Program-made: the position numbers and the translations under genes | Shown here: in pieces, positions 26,864-36,001 of the stretch | Position numbering within the stretch: the first letter of the stretch is position 1 | Layout: each line of letters opens with the position of its first letter | Notes under the pieces: model-generated | What the model saw: only the letters and a program-made list of their open reading frames with translations | The model's database searches: none | What the model was told of the DNA's origin: nothing | NCBI GenBank assembly: GCA_018268465.1 | Contig: JAFDWN010000004.1 | Span: forward strand, 103,474 to 167,473 | Direction of reading: 5' to 3' | Length of the DNA: 64,000 nt | DNA from: Actinomycetota bacterium | GTDB taxonomy: Bacteria; Actinomycetota; Actinomycetes; Mycobacteriales; Mycobacteriaceae

Positions 26864-26960
26864 AGAAGACCTCTGTAATCGAAGCAGCCGAAGTTCTTCT
26901 CGGCCCGCCCGGGACCCCTGCCCCGGGTGAACCGCACGAACACGAACTGTGGAGACCCCC

Positions 26961-27482
26961 ATGCCTTTTGACGATTCCATCGCCGAGAACATCAAGACCT
27001 CCCTCGCCGAGATCCCCCACCCCGCACTGCCCAAGGGGTCGAACATCTACGGCGGCACCAAGATCTTCCCCGACTACAAGGCCGAGAACGGCGAGAGCTA
27101 CTTCACGCTGGTCCACGGCATTGCGCACGAGTCGTCGGTCAGCTTCGTTGCCGTACTCCAGGCGACGCGCGCGCTGCGCAAGGGTTTCGAGTCGGCGATC
27201 TACTTCTACGGCCCCGGTGCCATCAACTGCCTTGCCACACGCGGCTTTCCGAAAACGGGCGACTCGGGGTTCCCCGGCGAACAAAACATCAACGATGCGC
27301 TCGCGACGTTCATCGGCGAAGGCGGAACCGTGTTCTGCTGCCGGTTCGGACTCGCCCTGCACGGCGGGCGGGAAGAGGATCTGATCGAAGGCGTGATTCC
27401 GGCCCATCCTCTCGACGTCCAGGACGCGCTGATCCACTACGCGCGCAAGGGCGCGATCATCAACTCGACCTACATGGTCTAG
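26961..27482 (+). CDS. MSMEG_0572/Sll0783-family nitrogen starvation response protein
   Basis: A 173-aa DsrE-like protein that opens Nit1C clusters in mycobacteria and cyanobacteria. Recognisable segments are SNIYGGTKIFPDYKAENGES, YFYGPGAINCLATRGFPKTG and the C-terminal GAIINSTYMV. The biochemical role is not established. The ATG at 26961 has GGAG six bases upstream; an in-frame GTG at 26949 is less likely. It is followed 33 bases later by the nitrilase. The family is known to be induced by nitrogen limitation, which agrees with the GlnR-like box upstream. Confidence 0.88.
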   Translation: MPFDDSIAENIKTSLAEIPHPALPKGSNIYGGTKIFPDYKAENGESYFTLVHGIAHESSVSFVAVLQATRALRKGFESAIYFYGPGAINCLATRGFPKTGDSGFPGEQNINDALATFIGEGGTVFCCRFGLALHGGREEDLIEGVIPAHPLDVQDALIHYARKGAIINSTYMV

Positions 27483-27515
27483 AACCTCTTCGGCACAATC
27501 GGATTCAGTCAAACC

Positions 27516-28415
27516 ATGACAACACTTGCTGCCGTCGCGGCGAACTTCACCCGCGACCTCGAACAGAACTACGCCGTGATCACCTCGCTGGCCGAGGAGG
27601 CGCGTGACCGGGGTGTCGATCTCCTCGTGCTGCCCGAAGCCGCGATCGGCGGGTATCTCTCGTCGCTGGGCAACCACGGCGACACGGTCAAGACCACCAC
27701 CCGCTCACTTCCACCGGCCATCCGCGTGGACGGACCCGAGATCGCCCGCGTCCAGCAGATCGTCGGCGACCTGGTGATCGCCATCGGGTTCTGCGAACTG
27801 GACGCGGACGGCGAGACCCGCTACAACGCCGCGGCGGTGCTGGACGGCGGCACCGTGTACGGAACCTACCGCAAGGTCCACCAGCCGCTCGGGGAGGGTA
27901 TGTCCTACTCGGCAGGCTCGACGTACGGCGTATTCGACACCCCGGTGGGCCGCGTCGGCCTGCAAATCTGCTACGACAAAGCCTTTCCCGAGGCGGCACG
28001 CATCATGGCCCTCGACGGGGCACAGATCATCGCGAGCCTGTCGGCCTGGCCGGCGGCCCGCACGGCGACCGCCGAAAATCTGCAGGACGACCGCTGGACC
28101 TATCGGTTCAACCAGTTCGACGTCGCCCGTGCGCTGGACAACCAGGTGTTCTGGGTGGCGTCCAACCAGAGCGGGACGTTCGGCTCGCTGCGCTACGTCG
28201 GCAACGCCAAGGTGGTCGACCCGGGCGGGAACATCCTGGCGACCACACTTCTCGGCGGCGGGATGGCCGTCGCCGACGTCGACATCGACACCACCTTCCG
28301 AGCCATGCGGGCCGGCATGTTCCACCTTCGCGACCGTAGGCCCGACGTGTACGGCCCGGTGTCACAGGCCGACGACCCGGCCACGGCGAAGTGGCGGGAG
28401 CTGGCCCATGCCTGA
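27516..28415 (+). CDS. Nit6803-family nitrilase (catalytic triad intact)
   Basis: A 299-aa aliphatic nitrilase of the Nit1 branch, hydrolysing nitriles to carboxylate and ammonia. The Glu-Lys-Cys triad is complete: Glu41 in LPEAAIGGY, Lys120 in YRKVHQP, and Cys152 in LQICYDKAFPEAAR. It starts at an ATG and ends overlapping the next small gene. In other bacteria this enzyme and its cluster permit use of cyanide-derived nitrogen. A second, altered copy lies at 33966-34808 in the same cluster. Confidence 0.93.
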   Translation: MTTLAAVAANFTRDLEQNYAVITSLAEEARDRGVDLLVLPEAAIGGYLSSLGNHGDTVKTTTRSLPPAIRVDGPEIARVQQIVGDLVIAIGFCELDADGETRYNAAAVLDGGTVYGTYRKVHQPLGEGMSYSAGSTYGVFDTPVGRVGLQICYDKAFPEAARIMALDGAQIIASLSAWPAARTATAENLQDDRWTYRFNQFDVARALDNQVFWVASNQSGTFGSLRYVGNAKVVDPGGNILATTLLGGGMAVADVDIDTTFRAMRAGMFHLRDRRPDVYGPVSQADDPATAKWRELAHA

Positions 28416-28704
28416 GATGACGTTCGAGGTGCGCTGGCCGGACGGCAGCGCGGCCCGGTACTACTCCCCCAGCCTGGTCATGCACGACTATCTCGTCGCG
28501 GGCACGTCCTACACCGTCGCCGACTTCGCCGACAGATCGGACCGCGCACTCATCGAAGCCGGCGAGCGGGTGCGGGCGAAGTTCGGATTCGCCTGCACGT
28601 CGGCGGCCGCAACCAACGCGCAGATCGCCGACACCGCATGCCGATACCCCTCCGACGCGCTGATCGACGTCATCGCGATGCAACCCGGCCTGGAGACGAT
28701 ATGA
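28408..28704 (+). CDS. MSMEG_0570-family nitrogen starvation response protein
   Basis: A 98-aa protein found only in Nit1C clusters, function unknown. It contains WPDGSAARYYSPSLVMHDYL, a conserved YTVADF segment and two cysteine-free helices near TAC-RYPSDALIDVI. The ATG at 28408 overlaps the nitrilase end by eight bases, and the stop overlaps the next ATG (ATGA), so it is tightly coupled to both neighbours. No membrane segment or signal peptide. Confidence 0.85.
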   Translation: MPEMTFEVRWPDGSAARYYSPSLVMHDYLVAGTSYTVADFADRSDRALIEAGERVRAKFGFACTSAAATNAQIADTACRYPSDALIDVIAMQPGLETI

Positions 28705-29978
28705 GCACCACCGAACACATCCCCGTCGTGATCATCGGCGGCGGTCAGGCCGGCCTGTCGGTCAGCTGGTATCTCGGACGCGCCGGCGTCGACCACGTCG
28801 TGCTGGAGGCGCACACCCCCGTGCACGCCTGGGCGGACAGCCGCTGGGACAATTTCACCCTCGTCACCCCGAACTGGCACTGCCGCCTGCCCGGCTACTC
28901 CTACGACGGCCCCGAGCCCGACGGATTCATGACCCGCGACGAGGTGGTGGACTGGCTGGCCGGCTGGCTGGATACGTTCAGCCCGCCGGTGCGCGACCAC
29001 ACCCGCGTGACCCGGCTACGTCCGTCGCGCGACGGGGGTTTCGAACTCACCGTCGAACAGCACGGCGCCGTGCGGACAATGACCTGCGAGCATGCGGTGA
29101 TCGCCACGGGCGGCTACCCGCTGCCGGTGCTGCCCCCGTTCGCCGGCTCGCTGGACCCTGCGGTCACCCAGATCCACTCGGAGCAGTACCGCAACGCCGG
29201 CCAACTTCCCGAGGGCGCAGTACTGGTCGTGGGATCGGGTCAGTCGGGCGCCCAGATCGCCGAGGACCTCCACCTGGCCGGGCGGCAGGTCCACCTGGCC
29301 GTCGGCAACGCCCCGCGCGTGGCACGCTTCTACCGTGGCCGCGACTGTATGACGTGGCTCGCCGATATGGGGCTCTACGACAAGGCCGCCCAGGAGTATC
29401 CCGGCGGCAAGGCGGCCATTGAGAAGACGAACCACTACGTCACCGGACGCGACGGCGGGCGCGACGTCGACCTGCGGCAATTCGCCGTGGAGGGTATGCG
29501 GCTCTACGGCGTGCTCAGCGACGGCAAAGACGCGACGCTGCGGTTCGAGCCGACCCTCGGCGGTGCGCTCGACCACGCCGATTCGGTGTACAACTCGATC
29601 TGCGCCGACATCGATGCCCACATCACCAGGGCGGGCGTCGACGCCCCGCCGGCGTCGCGCTATGAACCGGTGTGGGCTCCGGAGGCCGAACTCACCTCAT
29701 TGGACCTGGTGGCGGAGGGCATTTCCAGCATCGTGTGGGCCATCGGTTATCGGCCCGACTACCGCTGGATCGAAGCGAGTGCGTTCGACGGCGGCGGCAG
29801 GCCGATGCAGAACCGCGGCGTCACCGGGGTCACCGGTCTGAGTTTCGTCGGTCTGCCCTGGATGCACACCTGGGGTTCGGGACGGTTCCTCGGCATCGAC
29901 CGCGATGCCTCGCACATCGCGGCGACCATCATCAGCAGCTACCACGAGTCGGTGCTGCGGCTGGCCGTGGGTCACTAG
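28701..29978 (+). CDS. MSMEG_0569-family flavin-dependent oxidoreductase
   Basis: A 425-aa FAD/NADPH monooxygenase-like enzyme. It has an N-terminal FAD-binding GGGQAGLSVSWYLGRAG motif, a second dinucleotide fold GSGQSGAQIAEDL at about residue 175, and a late WAIGYRPDYRWIE strand that contacts FAD. It is a constant member of Nit1C clusters, presumably oxidising the cluster's substrate before or after nitrile hydrolysis; the real substrate is unknown. The start overlaps the stop of the preceding gene. Confidence 0.88.
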   Translation: MSTTEHIPVVIIGGGQAGLSVSWYLGRAGVDHVVLEAHTPVHAWADSRWDNFTLVTPNWHCRLPGYSYDGPEPDGFMTRDEVVDWLAGWLDTFSPPVRDHTRVTRLRPSRDGGFELTVEQHGAVRTMTCEHAVIATGGYPLPVLPPFAGSLDPAVTQIHSEQYRNAGQLPEGAVLVVGSGQSGAQIAEDLHLAGRQVHLAVGNAPRVARFYRGRDCMTWLADMGLYDKAAQEYPGGKAAIEKTNHYVTGRDGGRDVDLRQFAVEGMRLYGVLSDGKDATLRFEPTLGGALDHADSVYNSICADIDAHITRAGVDAPPASRYEPVWAPEAELTSLDLVAEGISSIVWAIGYRPDYRWIEASAFDGGGRPMQNRGVTGVTGLSFVGLPWMHTWGSGRFLGIDRDASHIAATIISSYHESVLRLAVGH

Positions 29979-29999
29979 CGCCCGGATGGATCGACGTAA

Positions 30000-31457
30000 A
30001 TGACTGTACGACAGACATTCTCGCGGATCATTACCGCGCGTGCACAGCGCAACCCGCACGAGGTCGTGGTACGTAGCGACCACGAAGGGGTGGATGTCAC
30101 CGCCGCCGAACTCGACGCGCACAGCAACCGGCTGGCCCGCGAGTACCTGGCGCGCGGCGTCGGCCGTGACGACCTGGTCGCGGTCGGGTTGCCCACGGGG
30201 GCCGAGTTCGTGGCGGCGTGCGTGGCGATCTGGAAGCTGGGCGCCACCCCGCACCCGCTGTCCCCGGCGCTGTCGCGCACCGACCGCGCGGCGCTGGAGG
30301 AGTCGGGCCGCCCCGCGCTGGCACTCGGCGCCCGCCCCGTCGAACCGTCGATCCCCTGGCTGCCTTCCGGATTCGTCCCGACGGCCGCCGGCACGATACT
30401 CCCCGACGCGTGGGCACACAGCTGGAAGGCACCCACGTCGTCGGGCAGTACCGGACGCCCCAAGATCGTCACATCCACCGCTCCCGCGCTGCTCGACCCC
30501 GACCGGCCGGTCGCGCCGTTCCTGCCGAGACGGGCCGTACAACTGGTGACCGCGCCGCTGTGGCACTCCGCGGCCTTCACGTATGCCTTCCGCGGGCTGC
30601 TCACCGGGCACCGGCTGGTGCTGACCGGCGGATTCGAGGAACACCGCTTCGCCGAGCTGGTCTCGCGGCACCGAATCACCTGGACCCTGCTGTCTCCCAG
30701 CATGATTCGCCGCCTGGTCCGGCTGACCGGACGCCCGTCGCTGGATTCACTGGAATCGGTGCTGCACATGGGTGCCCCGTGCGCCCCTGCCGACAAACGC
30801 GCCCTGATCGATCTGCTCGGCCCCTCGCGGGTCGTCGAAGTCTACGCGGGCAGCGAATCCAACGGCCTGACCATGATCACCGGTGCGGAGTGGCTGGCCA
30901 AGCCGGGTAGCGTCGGAAAACCCATCGGCGGCACGCAGATCGCCATCCGGCGCGCCGATGGTTCCGCCGCGGCGCCGCACGAGGTCGGTCAGGTGTGGAT
31001 GCACCGCGGCAACCTCCCCGCCTACCGCTATCTCGGCGCGGCCACCAGGCGGACCGGCGACGGCTGGGACACCCTGGGCGACCTCGGGATGCTCGACGAG
31101 GACGGCTATCTCACCATCGTGGAACGCGCCGACGACGTGATCGTGTCGGACGGGGTCACCGTCTATCCGTCCCGCGTCGAACACGCACTGGCGGCCCATC
31201 CGGCGGTACGCGACGCGGTCGTGTATCCGGCGCGCACCGGCCCCGGACACACCCGGGTGGCCGCCGTCGTCGAGGTGGCCGACGACGGCGTCGACGCCGC
31301 CGCCGTGCTGGCATACGCCGGCAGACGCCTGACGCCGGCGGAGCTGCCGTCCCTGATCGACATCACGCGCCACCCGCTGCGCAACGAAGCGGGGAAGGTC
31401 CGTCGCAGCACCTTCCGGCCCGCCGCATACACCGCCCGTGTCCCCGAAAGCGCCTAG
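30000..31457 (+). CDS. AMP-binding (class I adenylate-forming) ligase of the Nit1C cluster
   Basis: A 485-aa acyl-CoA synthetase-like enzyme that activates a carboxylic acid as acyl-AMP. The P-loop SSGSTGRPKIV, the EVYAGSESNG motif, GDLGMLDEDGYL with the ribose-binding Asp, and the C-terminal EAGKVRR lysine are all present. It starts 21 bases after the flavin oxidoreductase and ends shortly before the radical SAM gene. The natural acid substrate is unknown; an acid released by the neighbouring nitrilase is possible. Confidence 0.85.
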   Translation: MTVRQTFSRIITARAQRNPHEVVVRSDHEGVDVTAAELDAHSNRLAREYLARGVGRDDLVAVGLPTGAEFVAACVAIWKLGATPHPLSPALSRTDRAALEESGRPALALGARPVEPSIPWLPSGFVPTAAGTILPDAWAHSWKAPTSSGSTGRPKIVTSTAPALLDPDRPVAPFLPRRAVQLVTAPLWHSAAFTYAFRGLLTGHRLVLTGGFEEHRFAELVSRHRITWTLLSPSMIRRLVRLTGRPSLDSLESVLHMGAPCAPADKRALIDLLGPSRVVEVYAGSESNGLTMITGAEWLAKPGSVGKPIGGTQIAIRRADGSAAAPHEVGQVWMHRGNLPAYRYLGAATRRTGDGWDTLGDLGMLDEDGYLTIVERADDVIVSDGVTVYPSRVEHALAAHPAVRDAVVYPARTGPGHTRVAAVVEVADDGVDAAAVLAYAGRRLTPAELPSLIDITRHPLRNEAGKVRRSTFRPAAYTARVPESA

Positions 31458-31467
31458 GAGAATCGTC

Positions 31468-32532
31468 ATGCCCGCTGCGTCCGCTTCCACCCGCGTCGAC
31501 CTGGCCCTGCTGGGCATCAGGGGGCGACCACCGGTCAGCCGCGACGCCGGCGCCGGACCCAGCGACGACGGCCATCTGGTGGTCGACGGGCTCAACGCGG
31601 CGATCCCCCGCAACCCGTCGAGCCCGTTCGTCTTCGACGGTGACCGGGTACTGTTCGACGGCACGGACACCGGACTGGACGTCGAGGTCGTCGAGCGGCC
31701 CGCGTTCTATGACCTGGCCACTGCCGACGGGGTGCCCTACGAGAAGCTGGCGCGCCTGCACGGACGCAACGTGCTGGCCACGACGGTGGTGCAGACCTGT
31801 GTGCGCTACGCCGAGGACCAGCGTTGCCGGTTCTGTTCGATCGAGGAGTCGCTGCGCAGCGGCGCGACGACGGCGGTGAAGCGACCGGCCGAACTCGCGG
31901 AGGTGGCCGAGGCCGCCGTCCGGCTCGACGGTGTCACCCAGATGGTGATGACCACCGGCACGTCGGCGGGCAGCGATCGGGGTGCGCGGCATCTGGCACG
32001 GTGTGTGCGGGCCGTCAAAGAGGCGGTGCCGCAGCTGCCGGTCCAGGTGCAATGCGAACCGCCCGCCGACCTGAAGATCATCACCGAGCTGCGTGATGCG
32101 GGCGCGGATTCCATTGGGATCCACGTCGAATCGCTCGACGACGCGGTGCGGCGGCGCTGGATGCCCGGCAAGGCCACGGTGCCGCTCGCGCAGTACCGCG
32201 CAGCCTGGCGCGAAGCGGTGCGGGTGTTCGGCCGCAACCAGGTGTCGACGTATCTTCTCGTCGGACTCGGCGAGGAGCCCGACGATCTGATCGCCGGCGC
32301 CGCCGATCTGATCGCCATGGGGGTCTACCCGTTCGTGGTGCCGTTCCGCCCGCATCGCGGCACGCTGGCGGTCGATGTCGACGGGGCCGGGGCCCCCGAT
32401 GCCGCGGTGCTGGAGAAGGTCTCCCGAGAGGTGGCGGCCCTGCTTCGGATGTCGGGGATGGCGGGCGCCGACCAGCGGGCGGGTTGCGCGTCCTGCGGGG
32501 CGTGCGGCGTCCTGCAGAGCCTGGGCGGGTGA
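31468..32532 (+). CDS. MSMEG_0568-family radical SAM protein with C-x8-C-x2-C motif
   Basis: A 354-aa radical SAM enzyme of Nit1C clusters. The cluster-binding cysteines are Cys111, Cys120 and Cys123 (CVRYAEDQRCRFC), spaced C-x8-C-x2-C instead of the common C-x3-C-x2-C. A second cysteine group, CASCGAC, lies at the C-terminus and may hold an auxiliary Fe-S cluster. TTGTSAGSDRG and the IGIHVES barrel strands support a SAM TIM-barrel. The ATG at 31468 has AGGAG seven bases upstream. The reaction is unknown. Confidence 0.88.
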   Translation: MPAASASTRVDLALLGIRGRPPVSRDAGAGPSDDGHLVVDGLNAAIPRNPSSPFVFDGDRVLFDGTDTGLDVEVVERPAFYDLATADGVPYEKLARLHGRNVLATTVVQTCVRYAEDQRCRFCSIEESLRSGATTAVKRPAELAEVAEAAVRLDGVTQMVMTTGTSAGSDRGARHLARCVRAVKEAVPQLPVQVQCEPPADLKIITELRDAGADSIGIHVESLDDAVRRRWMPGKATVPLAQYRAAWREAVRVFGRNQVSTYLLVGLGEEPDDLIAGAADLIAMGVYPFVVPFRPHRGTLAVDVDGAGAPDAAVLEKVSREVAALLRMSGMAGADQRAGCASCGACGVLQSLGG

Positions 32533-32536
32533 GGTG

Positions 32537-33964
32537 ATGCGCGACATGATCGGGCCGCAGCGGGGCCATGAGTTGTCCATTTTGTCCGGCACCCGGCGGA
32601 TCGATGCACCCGCGGGGTTTCTCATCCACCCCGCCGACGGCCGCGACGAGATCGAGCAGTACCGCCGGCTGCGCCGCGCGGCGTTCGTCGTCGACCAGGG
32701 CCTATTCCGCGGCAGCGACCATGACGACCTCGATGACGATCCGCGCACCGTCGTGCTGGTGGCGACCGCATCCGACGGGACGGTGCTCGGCGGCGTCCGG
32801 TTGGCGCCGCGCACCACCACAGATATCGGCTGGTGGACCGGAAGCCGCCTGGTCACCGACACCGCGGTGCGCGCATCGGGGCTGGGTCCCGCCCTGGTCC
32901 GTGCGGCGTGCGCGCACGCCGAATCCGCCGGGGTGCTGCGTTTCGAAGCCACGGTGCAGCGCCGGTACCTGGCCATGTTCACCGCGCTGGGCTGGGAGAT
33001 GCTCGGCGACTGCCTGCTGGGTGAGCGTCCGCACGTGCGGATGCGCTGGCCGATCCACCGGGTCCAGCGGTCCGCGAACGCCACGAAGTCGTTCCTCGGT
33101 GACGTGCTGCGCCCGCTGTCCGGAGTTGCCGGCGGGCTCGGACCTGCAGGTTTCGTCGGCGACGACGGCGTACCCGTGCCCGGCAGCGACGTCGTCGCCG
33201 CATGTGATGCAATCATCCCGTCCATGGTGGAACGCGATCCGGAGTGGGCGGGGTGGTGTTCGGTGCTGGTCAACGTCAACGACCTGACGGCGATGGGCGC
33301 GTCGCCCACCGGCCTGCTCGACGCCGTGGGCGCGCCGACACGCTCACTGCTGACCCGGATCGTCCGCGGCATCGCCAAGGCTTCCCACTCCTGGCAGGTG
33401 CCGGTGCTGGGCGGCCATACTCAGCTCGGCGTGCCGGCGTCGCTGTCGGTGACGGCACTGGGCCGGACCCGCCGACCCGTACCTGCCGGTGGCGGCGCCG
33501 CCGGCGACGAGGTGCGGATCACCGCCGACCTGTCCGGCGGTTGGCGCCCGGGTTACCATGGCCGCCAATGGGATTCGACCAGCGGCCGGCGCCGCGACGA
33601 GCTCGCCCGCATGACTTCCCTGGTCGCCGAGATGCGCCCGCACGCGGCCAAGGACGTCAGTATGGCGGGGACGGTGGGCACGCTCGGGATGCTGGCCGAG
33701 GCCAGCGGCACGGGCGCCGAGATCGACGTCGCAGCGGTGCCGCGTCCGGCCGGCGCCGACATGGGCGCATGGCTGACCTGCTTTCCGGGCTTCGCGATGC
33801 TCACCGCCGGTGACGGCGGCGCGGCCGTCCCGGCCATGCCCGCAGGTGTGGTGAGCGAGGTGTGTGGCCGGCTCACCTCCCGGCCCGGTGTGCGGCTGCG
33901 CTGGCCCGACGGGGAGCTCACCGACGCGCTGACACCGGAGGTGACGGGGTTGGGGAGGGCATGA
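32537..33964 (+). CDS. MSMEG_0567/Sll0787-family GNAT-AIR synthase fusion protein
   Basis: A 475-aa two-domain protein. Residues about 1-165 are a GNAT acetyltransferase-like domain (EIEQYRRLRRAAFVVDQG, then VTDTAVRASGLGPALVRAAC for acetyl-CoA binding). Residues about 180-475 are an AIR-synthase/PurM-like ATP-dependent domain (LVNVNDLTAMGASPTGLLDA, VLGGHTQLGVPASLSVTALG). In some genomes these are two separate genes; here they are fused. It starts five bases after the radical SAM stop and ends next to the second nitrilase. Role in the cluster unknown. Confidence 0.85.
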   Translation: MRDMIGPQRGHELSILSGTRRIDAPAGFLIHPADGRDEIEQYRRLRRAAFVVDQGLFRGSDHDDLDDDPRTVVLVATASDGTVLGGVRLAPRTTTDIGWWTGSRLVTDTAVRASGLGPALVRAACAHAESAGVLRFEATVQRRYLAMFTALGWEMLGDCLLGERPHVRMRWPIHRVQRSANATKSFLGDVLRPLSGVAGGLGPAGFVGDDGVPVPGSDVVAACDAIIPSMVERDPEWAGWCSVLVNVNDLTAMGASPTGLLDAVGAPTRSLLTRIVRGIAKASHSWQVPVLGGHTQLGVPASLSVTALGRTRRPVPAGGGAAGDEVRITADLSGGWRPGYHGRQWDSTSGRRRDELARMTSLVAEMRPHAAKDVSMAGTVGTLGMLAEASGTGAEIDVAAVPRPAGADMGAWLTCFPGFAMLTAGDGGAAVPAMPAGVVSEVCGRLTSRPGVRLRWPDGELTDALTPEVTGLGRA

Positions 33965-33965
33965 A

Positions 33966-34808
33966 TTGGCACCGATAACGATAGCGGCGGTGGCCGCCCA
34001 CTTCGGCCGGGACGTCGACCGCGGGGTCAGCAAGGTCGTCGGCATCGTCGATGCGGCGACCCGGGAGGGCGTGCAGCTTCTCGTGTTTCCAGACGCCTGC
34101 CTGGGCGGCTACATCGGCGATCTGCGCGCACCCGACCCCGATGATCCGCCACCGGCGCTCGACCCCGACGGCCCGGAGATCGCGGCCGTCATCGCCGCCG
34201 CCGGGCCGATGACGGTGTGTCTGGGCTACGCGGAGGCCGCGATCGGGGGCCGGTACAACTCGGCGATCTGTGTATCGGGCGAGGGGGTGCTGGGCGCGCA
34301 CCGCAAGGTCCACCAGCCCGCCGGTGAAGGTCTGACCTATCTGGCGGGTGATTCGTTCTCGGCGTTCGACACCCCGGTGGGCCGGATCGGGATGCTCATC
34401 GACTACGACAAAACCTTCCCCGAGTCCGCGCGGGCGCTGGCGCTCGACGGCGCGATGATCATCGCCGCGTTGTCGGCGTGGCCCGCCAGCGTCACGGACC
34501 GAGCGTCGCGGCTGCCGGCCGACCGCCAATCACGGCTGTTCGACCTCTACGACTGCGCCCGCGCGGCGGAGAACCAGGTGGTGCTGGTGTCGTCGAATCA
34601 GACGGGGATCATGGGTTCTCTGCGCTTCCTCGGCCAGGCCAAGGTGGTCGGGCCCGGCGGTGAGATCCTGGCGACCACCCGCTCCAAGGGTGGCCTGGCC
34701 AAGGTGGATATCGATGTGGACGCCGAGATCGGCCGCGCCAGAAGGGTATTGAACCATCTGACGGAACGCCGGCTGGACGCCTACCACACCACGGCACCGG
34801 GGCGGTAG
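33966..34808 (+). CDS. Second nitrilase paralogue lacking the catalytic Cys (pseudoenzyme)
   Basis: A 280-aa nitrilase-family protein clearly paralogous to the one at 27516-28415, sharing YRKVHQP-like HRKVHQPAGEG, FDTPVGRIG and LSAWPAS. The nucleophile Cys is Asp146 (LIDYDKTFPES, codon GAC at 34401-34403), and the catalytic Glu is Asp43 (FPDACLGGY). Lys114 is kept. The reading frame is intact and the fold residues are conserved, so it is not a decaying pseudogene by appearance. It starts at a TTG overlapping the end of the GNAT-AIR gene region. It may form mixed oligomers with the active nitrilase or bind ligand. Confidence 0.85.
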   Translation: MAPITIAAVAAHFGRDVDRGVSKVVGIVDAATREGVQLLVFPDACLGGYIGDLRAPDPDDPPPALDPDGPEIAAVIAAAGPMTVCLGYAEAAIGGRYNSAICVSGEGVLGAHRKVHQPAGEGLTYLAGDSFSAFDTPVGRIGMLIDYDKTFPESARALALDGAMIIAALSAWPASVTDRASRLPADRQSRLFDLYDCARAAENQVVLVSSNQTGIMGSLRFLGQAKVVGPGGEILATTRSKGGLAKVDIDVDAEIGRARRVLNHLTERRLDAYHTTAPGR

Positions 34809-34810
34809 CC

Positions 34811-36001
34811 GTGCGGGTCGCATTGATCACGTATTCCACCAAACCCCGCGGCGGTGTGGTGCACACGCTCGATCTCGCCGAGGCGCTGGCGGCGATCGGC
34901 GTCGAGGTGACCGTCTGGTCACTGGCCCGGCAGGGCGACCGGGGGTTCTTCCGGCCCGTGGACAGCCGGGTGGCATTGCGGCTCATCGAGTTTCCCGACC
35001 GCCCGGACGAATCGGTGACCGATCGGATCGTGCGCTCGATCGACGCGATGCGCCGCGCATTCACCCCGGATCGCTACGACATCGTGCACGCTCAGGACTG
35101 CATCAGCGCCAATGCCGTCGGGACATGTATCCGCACCATCCACCATCTCGACCAGTTCACCACCCCGATCCTGGTCGAATGCCACGAGAAGGCCGTCGTG
35201 GAACCGTACGCGCGCATCTGCGTCTCGGCGGCGGTGGCCGCCGAAGTGGCCGCGGGCTGGGGACTGCGGCCGACCGTGATCCCCAATGGCGTTCGTGCGC
35301 AGCGTTTCACCGCGGCGGCCGCCGATCCGGCAGCACAACGGCGGTGGACGGACGAGCTGGGGAGCTACGTGCTGACGGTCGGCGGTATCGAGCCCCGCAA
35401 GGGCACCGTCGACCTGGTCGAGGCGTACCACCTTTTCCGGCAGCGTGTTCCGGACGTCGCGTTGGTGATCGCCGGGGGCGAAACACTTTTCGACTACCGC
35501 GATTACCGGGCGGAGTTCGAACGCCGGTGCGCACGTCTCGGCGTCGAACCCGTCATCCTGGGCGCGGTGGCCGACGGCGAACTGCCCGGCCTCGTCGCGG
35601 CCGCCGCGGTGTTCGCGTTCCCGTCCACCAAGGAGGGTTTCGGGCTCGCGGCGATGGAGGCGCTGGCGGCCGGCCGGCCCGTCGTCGCGCGGGATCTGCC
35701 CGTCCTGCGTGAGGTGTTCGGCGACACCGTGCGGTATGCGTCGGATGTGCGGGGACTCGCCGACGGGCTGGTTTCCGCGGTCGGAGACCGCAATCCGGCA
35801 CCAGCGGTCGGAGACCGCAATCCGGCACCAGCGGTCGGAGACCGCAATCCGGCACCAGCGGTCGGAGACCGCAATCCGGCACCAGCGGTGGCAGGCGCCA
35901 GGGCGGAGGCGGGGCGCGCGCTGGCGGAGTCGATGACCTGGGCGGCCGCGGCGCGGGCGCACGTCGCGTTCTACCGGGACCATCCGAAACCGGCGCATTG
36001 A
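34811..36001 (+). CDS. MSMEG_0565-family GT4 glycosyltransferase
   Basis: A 396-aa retaining glycosyltransferase that closes Nit1C clusters. GT-B features are the N-terminal KPRGGVVHTLDLAEAL glycine-rich loop, IPNGV, GGIEPRKGTVDLVEAY, and the nucleotide-sugar binding FPSTKEGFGLAAMEALAAG Glu-x7-Glu motif. Donor and acceptor are unknown. Four perfect 27-bp repeats near the C-terminus (35777-35884) encode repeated AVGDRNPAP units. GTG start at 34811, two bases after the nitrilase paralogue stop. Confidence 0.88.
   Translation: MRVALITYSTKPRGGVVHTLDLAEALAAIGVEVTVWSLARQGDRGFFRPVDSRVALRLIEFPDRPDESVTDRIVRSIDAMRRAFTPDRYDIVHAQDCISANAVGTCIRTIHHLDQFTTPILVECHEKAVVEPYARICVSAAVAAEVAAGWGLRPTVIPNGVRAQRFTAAAADPAAQRRWTDELGSYVLTVGGIEPRKGTVDLVEAYHLFRQRVPDVALVIAGGETLFDYRDYRAEFERRCARLGVEPVILGAVADGELPGLVAAAAVFAFPSTKEGFGLAAMEALAAGRPVVARDLPVLREVFGDTVRYASDVRGLADGLVSAVGDRNPAPAVGDRNPAPAVGDRNPAPAVGDRNPAPAVAGARAEAGRALAESMTWAAAARAHVAFYRDHPKPAH
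35777..35884 (+). repeat. Four perfect 27-bp in-frame tandem repeats (VNTR) in the glycosyltransferase
   Basis: Four identical units start at 35777, 35804, 35831 and 35858, encoding AVGDRNPAP each. The unit contains GGTC-GGA-GACC, a small dyad. Being a multiple of three, copy-number changes keep the frame. Perfect identity suggests recent expansion. Confidence 0.95.

Follow-up and report, generated by a model that had tools for sequence, protein, structure and literature searches.

An aspartate-bearing nitrilase-fold protein of an actinobacterial gpr (Nit1C-like) gene cluster, probably with a job of its own

In this work, we analyse a nitrilase-like gene, here called n2, that lies on a 64,000-nucleotide stretch of DNA from a member of the Mycobacteriaceae (assembly GCA_018268465.1, contig JAFDWN010000004.1; the whole stretch is referred to as the window), in a run of nine genes on the + strand (26949-36001) that also encodes a paralogous nitrilase, n1. 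In place of the catalytic cysteine, n2 has a conserved aspartate, and it probably has its own job rather than being a broken enzyme. We tentatively propose, with a little less than even confidence, that the gpr (Nit1C-like) nitrogen-starvation pathway includes n2 as a nitrilase-fold subunit without hydrolytic activity, whose most likely partner is n1. The elements on which the argument turns are as follows:

33966..34808, + strand: n2, a nitrilase-fold protein of 280 amino acids with a TTG start and Asp43-Lys114-Glu121-Asp146 instead of Glu-Lys-Glu-Cys
34092..34094, + strand: n2 codon GAC, Asp43, at the catalytic-glutamate position (G, Q, H, N and once E in relatives)
34305-34307, + strand: n2 codon AAG, Lys114
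34326-34328, + strand: n2 codon GAA, Glu121
34401..34403, + strand: n2 codon GAC, Asp146, at the catalytic-cysteine position (conserved in the relatives read)
34524..34574, + strand: n2 codons 187-203, a predicted helix with Gln188, Leu191 and Ala201 that by homology is the nitrilase dimer-surface helix
27516..28415, + strand: n1, the paralogous nitrilase, with Glu41-Lys120-Glu127-Cys152

By both its sequence model and its alpha-beta-beta-alpha fold, n2 belongs to the carbon-nitrogen hydrolase superfamily (PF00795), and it lacks the Glu-Lys-Cys triad of the active members, with Asp43, Lys114 and Asp146 at those positions. As a first-pass annotation of the window had it, the two nitrilases align across the active site; their identity is 48% over 277 columns, and Glu41 of n1 falls opposite Asp43 of n2, Lys120 opposite Lys114 and Cys152 opposite Asp146. 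The same annotation had called a Cys-to-Asp change at codon 34401-34403, to be abandoned should that codon be TGC or TGT; it reads GAC, which differs from either cysteine codon at two or more bases, so a single misread base is no explanation for Asp146. The frame is open, starting one base after the upstream stop and ending 2 bases before the next gene, which encodes a glycosyltransferase.

The Asp form is kept widely, as seen in genome samples that each include the window's own genome. In the same genus, 32 of 198 genomes have an n2 orthologue (at least 71% identity), all 32 with an n1-like match as well (one partial, at a contig end). In the family, a search at E 1e-60 picks out 83 of 301 genomes; 81 of these have at least two matches and two have one (G399, which is 85% complete, and G378). 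Across the class, a search at E 1e-45 picks out 49 of 394 genomes: n2 is present in 33, with Asp146 in 33/33, and the remaining 16 have a single match, which is of the n1 type (Glu-Lys-Glu-Cys, hereafter EKEC) in all 14 whose residues were read, G1077 and G1243 being left out. A strain-specific oddity is ruled out by this same state across the class sample. In the phylum sample, nine of 396 genomes match, among them G837, with Asp-Lys-Asp-Asp beside an EKEC partner, and G570, G591, G613 and G843, with EKEC forms only; within the order of G837, three of 118 genomes match, including G879 with both types and G941 with EKEC only.

Named genomes were represented by the best 80 of 494 confirmed stretches, and Asp146 is found in n2 at 80/80 of these loci, with His at position 43 in four; this set is not an independent test of the aspartate, which lies inside one of the two search words, whereas the other sets are independent. 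The titles of named-genome records with n2 include Mycolicibacterium, Gordonia, Williamsia, Nocardia, Rhodococcus, Millisia and Smaragdicoccus. Two further titles, an Acidobacteriaceae bin (L221) and Kitasatospora arboriphila (L222), look doubtful as labels or bins, because L222 has genome coordinates identical to those of G298, from the window's family, and the n2 of L221 is 75% identical to that of the window.

Three protein-database searches, with 120 proteins listed for each of 3790, 340 and 4190 matches (the lists may overlap), gave 357 proteins for alignment once three fused proteins of more than 450 residues, all EKEC, had been excluded. Among these matches listed, 269 are n2-type and 88 EKEC, and the nucleophile position holds only Cys or Asp and no other residue. 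Asp146 and Lys114 are present in 269/269 of the n2-type proteins; position 121 is Glu (232) or Asp (37); position 43 is Asp in 259, His in 5, Asn in 2, and Gly, Gln and Glu in one each; and Thr150-Gln188-Leu191-Ala201 is complete in 268/269, with Ala150 in the other. The n2 proteins are named hydrolases in their source records, a name to be doubted.

In a midpoint-rooted tree of 82 rows, with mycobacterial rows thinned, some forks open and the branching order near the base uncertain, all 31 Asp rows fall into a single clade (support 100/95), next to the EKEC nitrilases of the cluster (97/83), and several subgroups occur in both the Asp and the EKEC half. This topology fits, as the simplest history, one old duplication, one Cys-to-Asp change and subsequent retention. 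Occasional loss may also have occurred: in G989, n2 is missing between the flavoprotein and glycosyltransferase genes, genus mates that were fetched carry it, and the gene looks to have been lost there. In G378, n2 is reduced to a fragment, the start of the adjoining AIR gene runs into transposase-like sequence (an insert judged by eye), and the cluster seems to have been broken by insertion.

Over 406 pairs from 29 mycobacterial genomes, the median NG86 omega (dN/dS) is 0.138 for n2 and 0.111 for n1, with n2 below n1 in 87/406 pairs; n2 has 1.25 times the non-synonymous change of n1 at a synonymous ratio of 1.01. Both genes are thus constrained, n2 somewhat less so, and n2 is under purifying selection. 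The first-pass annotation had asked for this comparison and had proposed a selected pseudoenzyme, to be given up if homologues decayed at random; instead, every n2 relative in which this residue was read has Asp, and n2 shows what defines a selection-kept pseudoenzyme, namely the loss of catalytic residues from a gene that purifying selection conserves. The clade, the omega values and the invariant Asp among the matches listed give good support to n2 as an old, selected homologue that lacks the cysteine; its inactivity is the part that we infer.

The aspartate is accompanied by other fixed differences. In a thinned set of 31 n2 and 30 paired n1 sequences, 77 columns reach at least 90% conservation in both groups, and seven of these are fixed differently (n2/n1): 146 D/C, 150 T/A, 188 Q/W, 191 L/R, 201 A/L, 262 L/M and 267 E/D. 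Five of the seven fall in the nucleophile elbow and in the helices expected from homology to make up the dimer (A) surface (post hoc, P 0.011); for the one helix, P is 0.043. Arg191 and Leu201 are kept in all 14 EKEC forms read that are the single match of a class-sample genome, and Trp188 in 11/14; Asp146 and Leu191 are restricted to n2 types among the forms read. An AlphaFold2 model of n2, built on a 20-row alignment of n2 types, has a mean predicted local distance difference test score of 89 and a predicted template modelling score of 0.88, includes the helix at 187-203, and has 6ypa, 1j31 and 5h8i among its best solved relatives.

The other members of the run, to whose products NCBIfam family models with curated cut-offs were applied, are:

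26949..27482, + strand: MSMEG_0572/Sll0783 family protein (TIGR04044)
28408..28704, + strand: MSMEG_0570 family protein (TIGR04042)
28698..29978, + strand: MSMEG_0569 family flavin-dependent oxidoreductase (TIGR04046)
30000..31457, + strand: AMP-forming acyl-CoA-ligase-like protein, found in part of the clusters only
31468..32532, + strand: MSMEG_0568 family radical SAM protein (TIGR04043)
32537..33964, + strand: MSMEG_0567 family fusion of GNAT and AIR-synthase-like parts (TIGR04045, TIGR04050)
34811..36001, + strand: MSMEG_0565 family glycosyltransferase (TIGR04047)

Six of the nine cluster products score above their cut-offs, the remainder being n1, n2 and the AMP-ligase-like protein. The gene for the latter lies inside the cluster here, and 16/80 named loci have one, 8 at the same position. 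Near its 3' end (35777-35889), the glycosyltransferase gene holds a perfect 27-base tandem repeat of 4.2 copies, whose in-frame units read VGDRNPAPA.

By family names and by order against the published eight open reading frames (MSMEG_0565 to 0572), the run is a gpr operon. In the excerpts of the papers on which we draw here and below, the gpr operon of Mycolicibacterium smegmatis is described as GlnR-dependent and required for peroxide resistance under nitrogen starvation, its deletion giving a peroxide sensitivity close to that of a glnR mutant under that condition, and as induced more than 500-fold by nitrogen starvation (PMC6039565). Values of 8.94 and 48.04 are tabulated for msmeg_0566 and msmeg_0571, respectively, in PMC4222082, and 2.96 and 4.06 are given in PMC4617892; regulation by GlnR is reported in PMC3662644, and GlnR binding upstream of msmeg_0572 in M. 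smegmatis in PMC4222082. One form of the GlnR motif, the sole form tried, has no match in the window. MSMEG_0566 is named a putative aliphatic amidase in PMC6039565, the excerpt of which makes no mention of a missing cysteine; going by gene order, MSMEG_0566 would be expected to carry the Asp. The same paper proposes that the UGA of MSMEG_0571 encodes selenocysteine and fuses MSMEG_0571 to the flavoprotein. Among 35 stretches in which n1, ending in TGA, and the flavoprotein are in the same frame, further stops lie between them in 23 and none in 12 (28413-28698 in the window), which argues against selenocysteine readthrough as a general rule.

The first-pass label of a Nit1C cluster holds in part. 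The accessory genes match Nit1C-type models (TIGR04044, 04042, 04046, 04043, 04045 and 04050 above cut-off, with TIGR04049 under its own at 173.2 of 321.3), but the nitrilases do not match TIGR04048, the Nit1C nitrilase of the Nit6803 family (n1 41.4 bits, n2 31.7 bits, cut-off 502.6). The closest solved relative of n1 is a carbamoylputrescine amidohydrolase. As n1 is not a TIGR04048 protein although its accessory genes are of the Nit1C type, different bacterial groups seem to have different nitrilases in clusters of this type. The accompanying statement that such clusters normally carry one nitrilase fits published Nit1C, but two are common in the actinobacterial version.

In the mechanism that we favour, an old actinobacterial nitrilase-fold subfamily would have abandoned cysteine chemistry and fixed Asp at the nucleophile position; n2 would pair with active n1 across the dimer surface, and the Asp-bearing subunit would shape, stabilise or gate the n1 active site. 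That n2 lacks hydrolase activity, that it physically pairs with n1 and that it affects n1 are all steps that we infer. A fixed Cys-less subunit that tunes n1 is sensible given that nitrilase monomers pair across helices alpha5/alpha6, proposed also to position the catalytic cysteine (PMC4981594, PMC4700190), that active-site entrances in the N-carbamoylputrescine amidohydrolase MtCPA are partly walled by the neighbour subunit (PMC4812014), and that a Cys-to-Ala subunit, when in excess, passes its specificity to the active partner in mixed helices of plant nitrilases (PMC6214922). The distribution of the two genes points the same way: n1 occurs alongside n2 in 32/33 class-sample genomes and in 80/80 named genomes, and since n1 is often found without n2 and n2 hardly ever without n1, the pattern is the one expected of an accessory subunit. 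At 69/80 named loci, an EKEC n1 is in the same stretch; ten loci have none nearby and one (L240) has a broken local copy, and each of those eleven genomes has, at another place, an n1-like gene of 80-89% identity (in one case a partial gene at a contig end), known by identity alone. In L240 (Williamsia sp. 1138), the n1 next to n2 is without its first part, a full-length n1-like gene (83%) is on another contig, and n2 is intact. The spacing of n1 and n2 is below 200 bases in 9 stretches.

Several observations weigh against the pairing of n2 with n1. The dimer-surface enrichment is weak and post hoc. Gln188 and Ala201 are also found in two (L077, L078) of the three EKEC forms that lie in clusters of other classes, and Gln188 in each of the four EKEC genes that lie outside the cluster, so neither residue alone marks lost catalysis. 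Over 66 dereplicated clusters, out of 120 with all five genes, partial distance correlations that allow for the three other cluster genes are 0.50 for n2 with the radical SAM protein, 0.36 for n1 with the radical SAM protein, 0.27 for n2 with the glycosyltransferase and 0.17 for n1 with n2, and co-evolution of n1 and n2 beyond the rest of the cluster was thus not found in this set. Of 340 matches, the 120 listed include no n1-n2 fusion but do include three proteins (P0183, P0219 and P0224, 704-738 residues) in which an EKEC n1-type nitrilase is fused to a flavoprotein, a hint that n1 and the MSMEG_0569 product act one after the other. The link of n2 to the glycosyltransferase gene is tighter than that to n1, and in one class-sample genome (G981, L166) an intact Asp-type n2 stands alone among unrelated genes; n1 and the cluster are both missing there, and this n2 is either a relic or put to a second use. 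Finally, an invariant Asp exceeds the needs of a bare scaffold. The mixed oligomer in which a dead subunit regulates the live one, as first suggested for this cluster, therefore stays plausible by plant precedent (PMC6214922) but draws no support from the n1-n2 correlation or from fusions among the matches listed.

It is possible, though on balance doubtful, that n2 is non-hydrolytic with a partner other than n1, its altered pocket binding a pathway intermediate and the glycosyltransferase or the radical SAM protein using n2 as a carrier, scaffold or sensor. The glycosyltransferase gene lies directly 3' of n2 in 52/54 stretches and at 80/80 named loci, the radical SAM protein is the top correlate of n2, and the pocket residues Lys114, Asp146 and Thr150 are those kept in the n2-type proteins listed; but operon adjacency is weak evidence for contact, and 14/21 stretches with only the Cys form have the glycosyltransferase without n2, so that the glycosyltransferase can do without n2 too. 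That n2 is decaying or a sequencing error deserves almost no credence: the lost triad and the raised non-synonymous rate are all that favours it, and it is ruled out by the homologues, with the same replacement in every relative read, intact frames, a single clade and a broken n2 in G378 only, together with the low omega.

Since Asp146 and Lys114 are invariant while position 43 drifts, the Asp itself appears to matter, be it as an internal salt bridge holding the elbow, a ligand contact or a catalyst. In some alpha/beta hydrolases, Asp replaces Ser or Cys at the nucleophile elbow, and by analogy n2 could be active with a different chemistry, Asp146 serving as nucleophile or base and Lys114 and Glu121 being retained as helpers, which we regard as unlikely. 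An Asp would not need the Glu for deprotonation, in agreement with the drift at position 43, and in the n2-type proteins listed position 121 is always Glu or Asp and position 150 is Thr in all but one; yet the classical general base is not conserved, narrow literature searches found no Asp-nucleophile member of the nitrilase fold, and the solved relatives listed include known Cys enzymes and Cys mutants of these. It is slightly less likely still that Asp permanently replaces the Cys nucleophile with its own chemistry (Asp-ester or Asp-base, with Lys114 and Glu121), which would be a new catalytic class for the superfamily, concealed within a stress operon. Asp also resembles a cysteine oxidised to sulfinate, and, purely as speculation, n2 might mimic an oxidised subunit in a peroxide-linked operon.

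One of the two 'amidases' of gpr is probably no ordinary amidase. If n2 is a fixed non-catalytic partner, it would be a natural version of the mixed active/inactive nitrilase built with mutants in PMC6214922; if Asp146 is catalytic, it would represent a new mechanism for the superfamily. Both ideas can be put to a direct test with the n1/n2 pair, the signature Asp146-Thr150-Gln188-Leu191-Ala201 and the lineages that lack n2. Keyword searches of the open-licence literature found no natural Cys-less nitrilase of the n2 kind.

Set against known systems, the cluster shares the MSMEG_0572, radical SAM, GNAT/AIR-like, MSMEG_0570 and flavoprotein families with Nit1C, families that we take to be equivalent to the Nit1C open reading frames of the original Nit1C paper. 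It departs from Nit1C in its nitrilases, being a cluster with two of them, neither matching TIGR04048, whereas Nit1C is limited to subfamily 1 nitrilases (PMC1199592). The gpr operon of M. smegmatis has the same families in the same order, so that n2 corresponds to MSMEG_0566 and n1 to MSMEG_0571 by order, and the window has the AMP-ligase-like gene in addition (PMC6039565). The identity of n2 is about 26% to MtCPA and to the PH0642 amidase (6ypa, 1j31); MtCPA (5h8i; PMC4812014) has Glu48-Lys121-Cys158, whereas n2 has Asp at the nucleophile position, and position 150 of n2 equals, by counting from the nucleophile, MtCPA Trp162, described as a pocket residue close to the catalytic water (PMC4812014). 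Among heteromeric plant nitrilases, unlike subunits share a complex in sorghum NIT4A/NIT4B (PMC5154151) and in the mixed Capsella nitrilases (PMC6214922), the arrangement that we suppose for n1 and n2; in Capsella, the inactive subunits are laboratory mutants, whereas in n2 the cysteine has been lost naturally across a whole clade.
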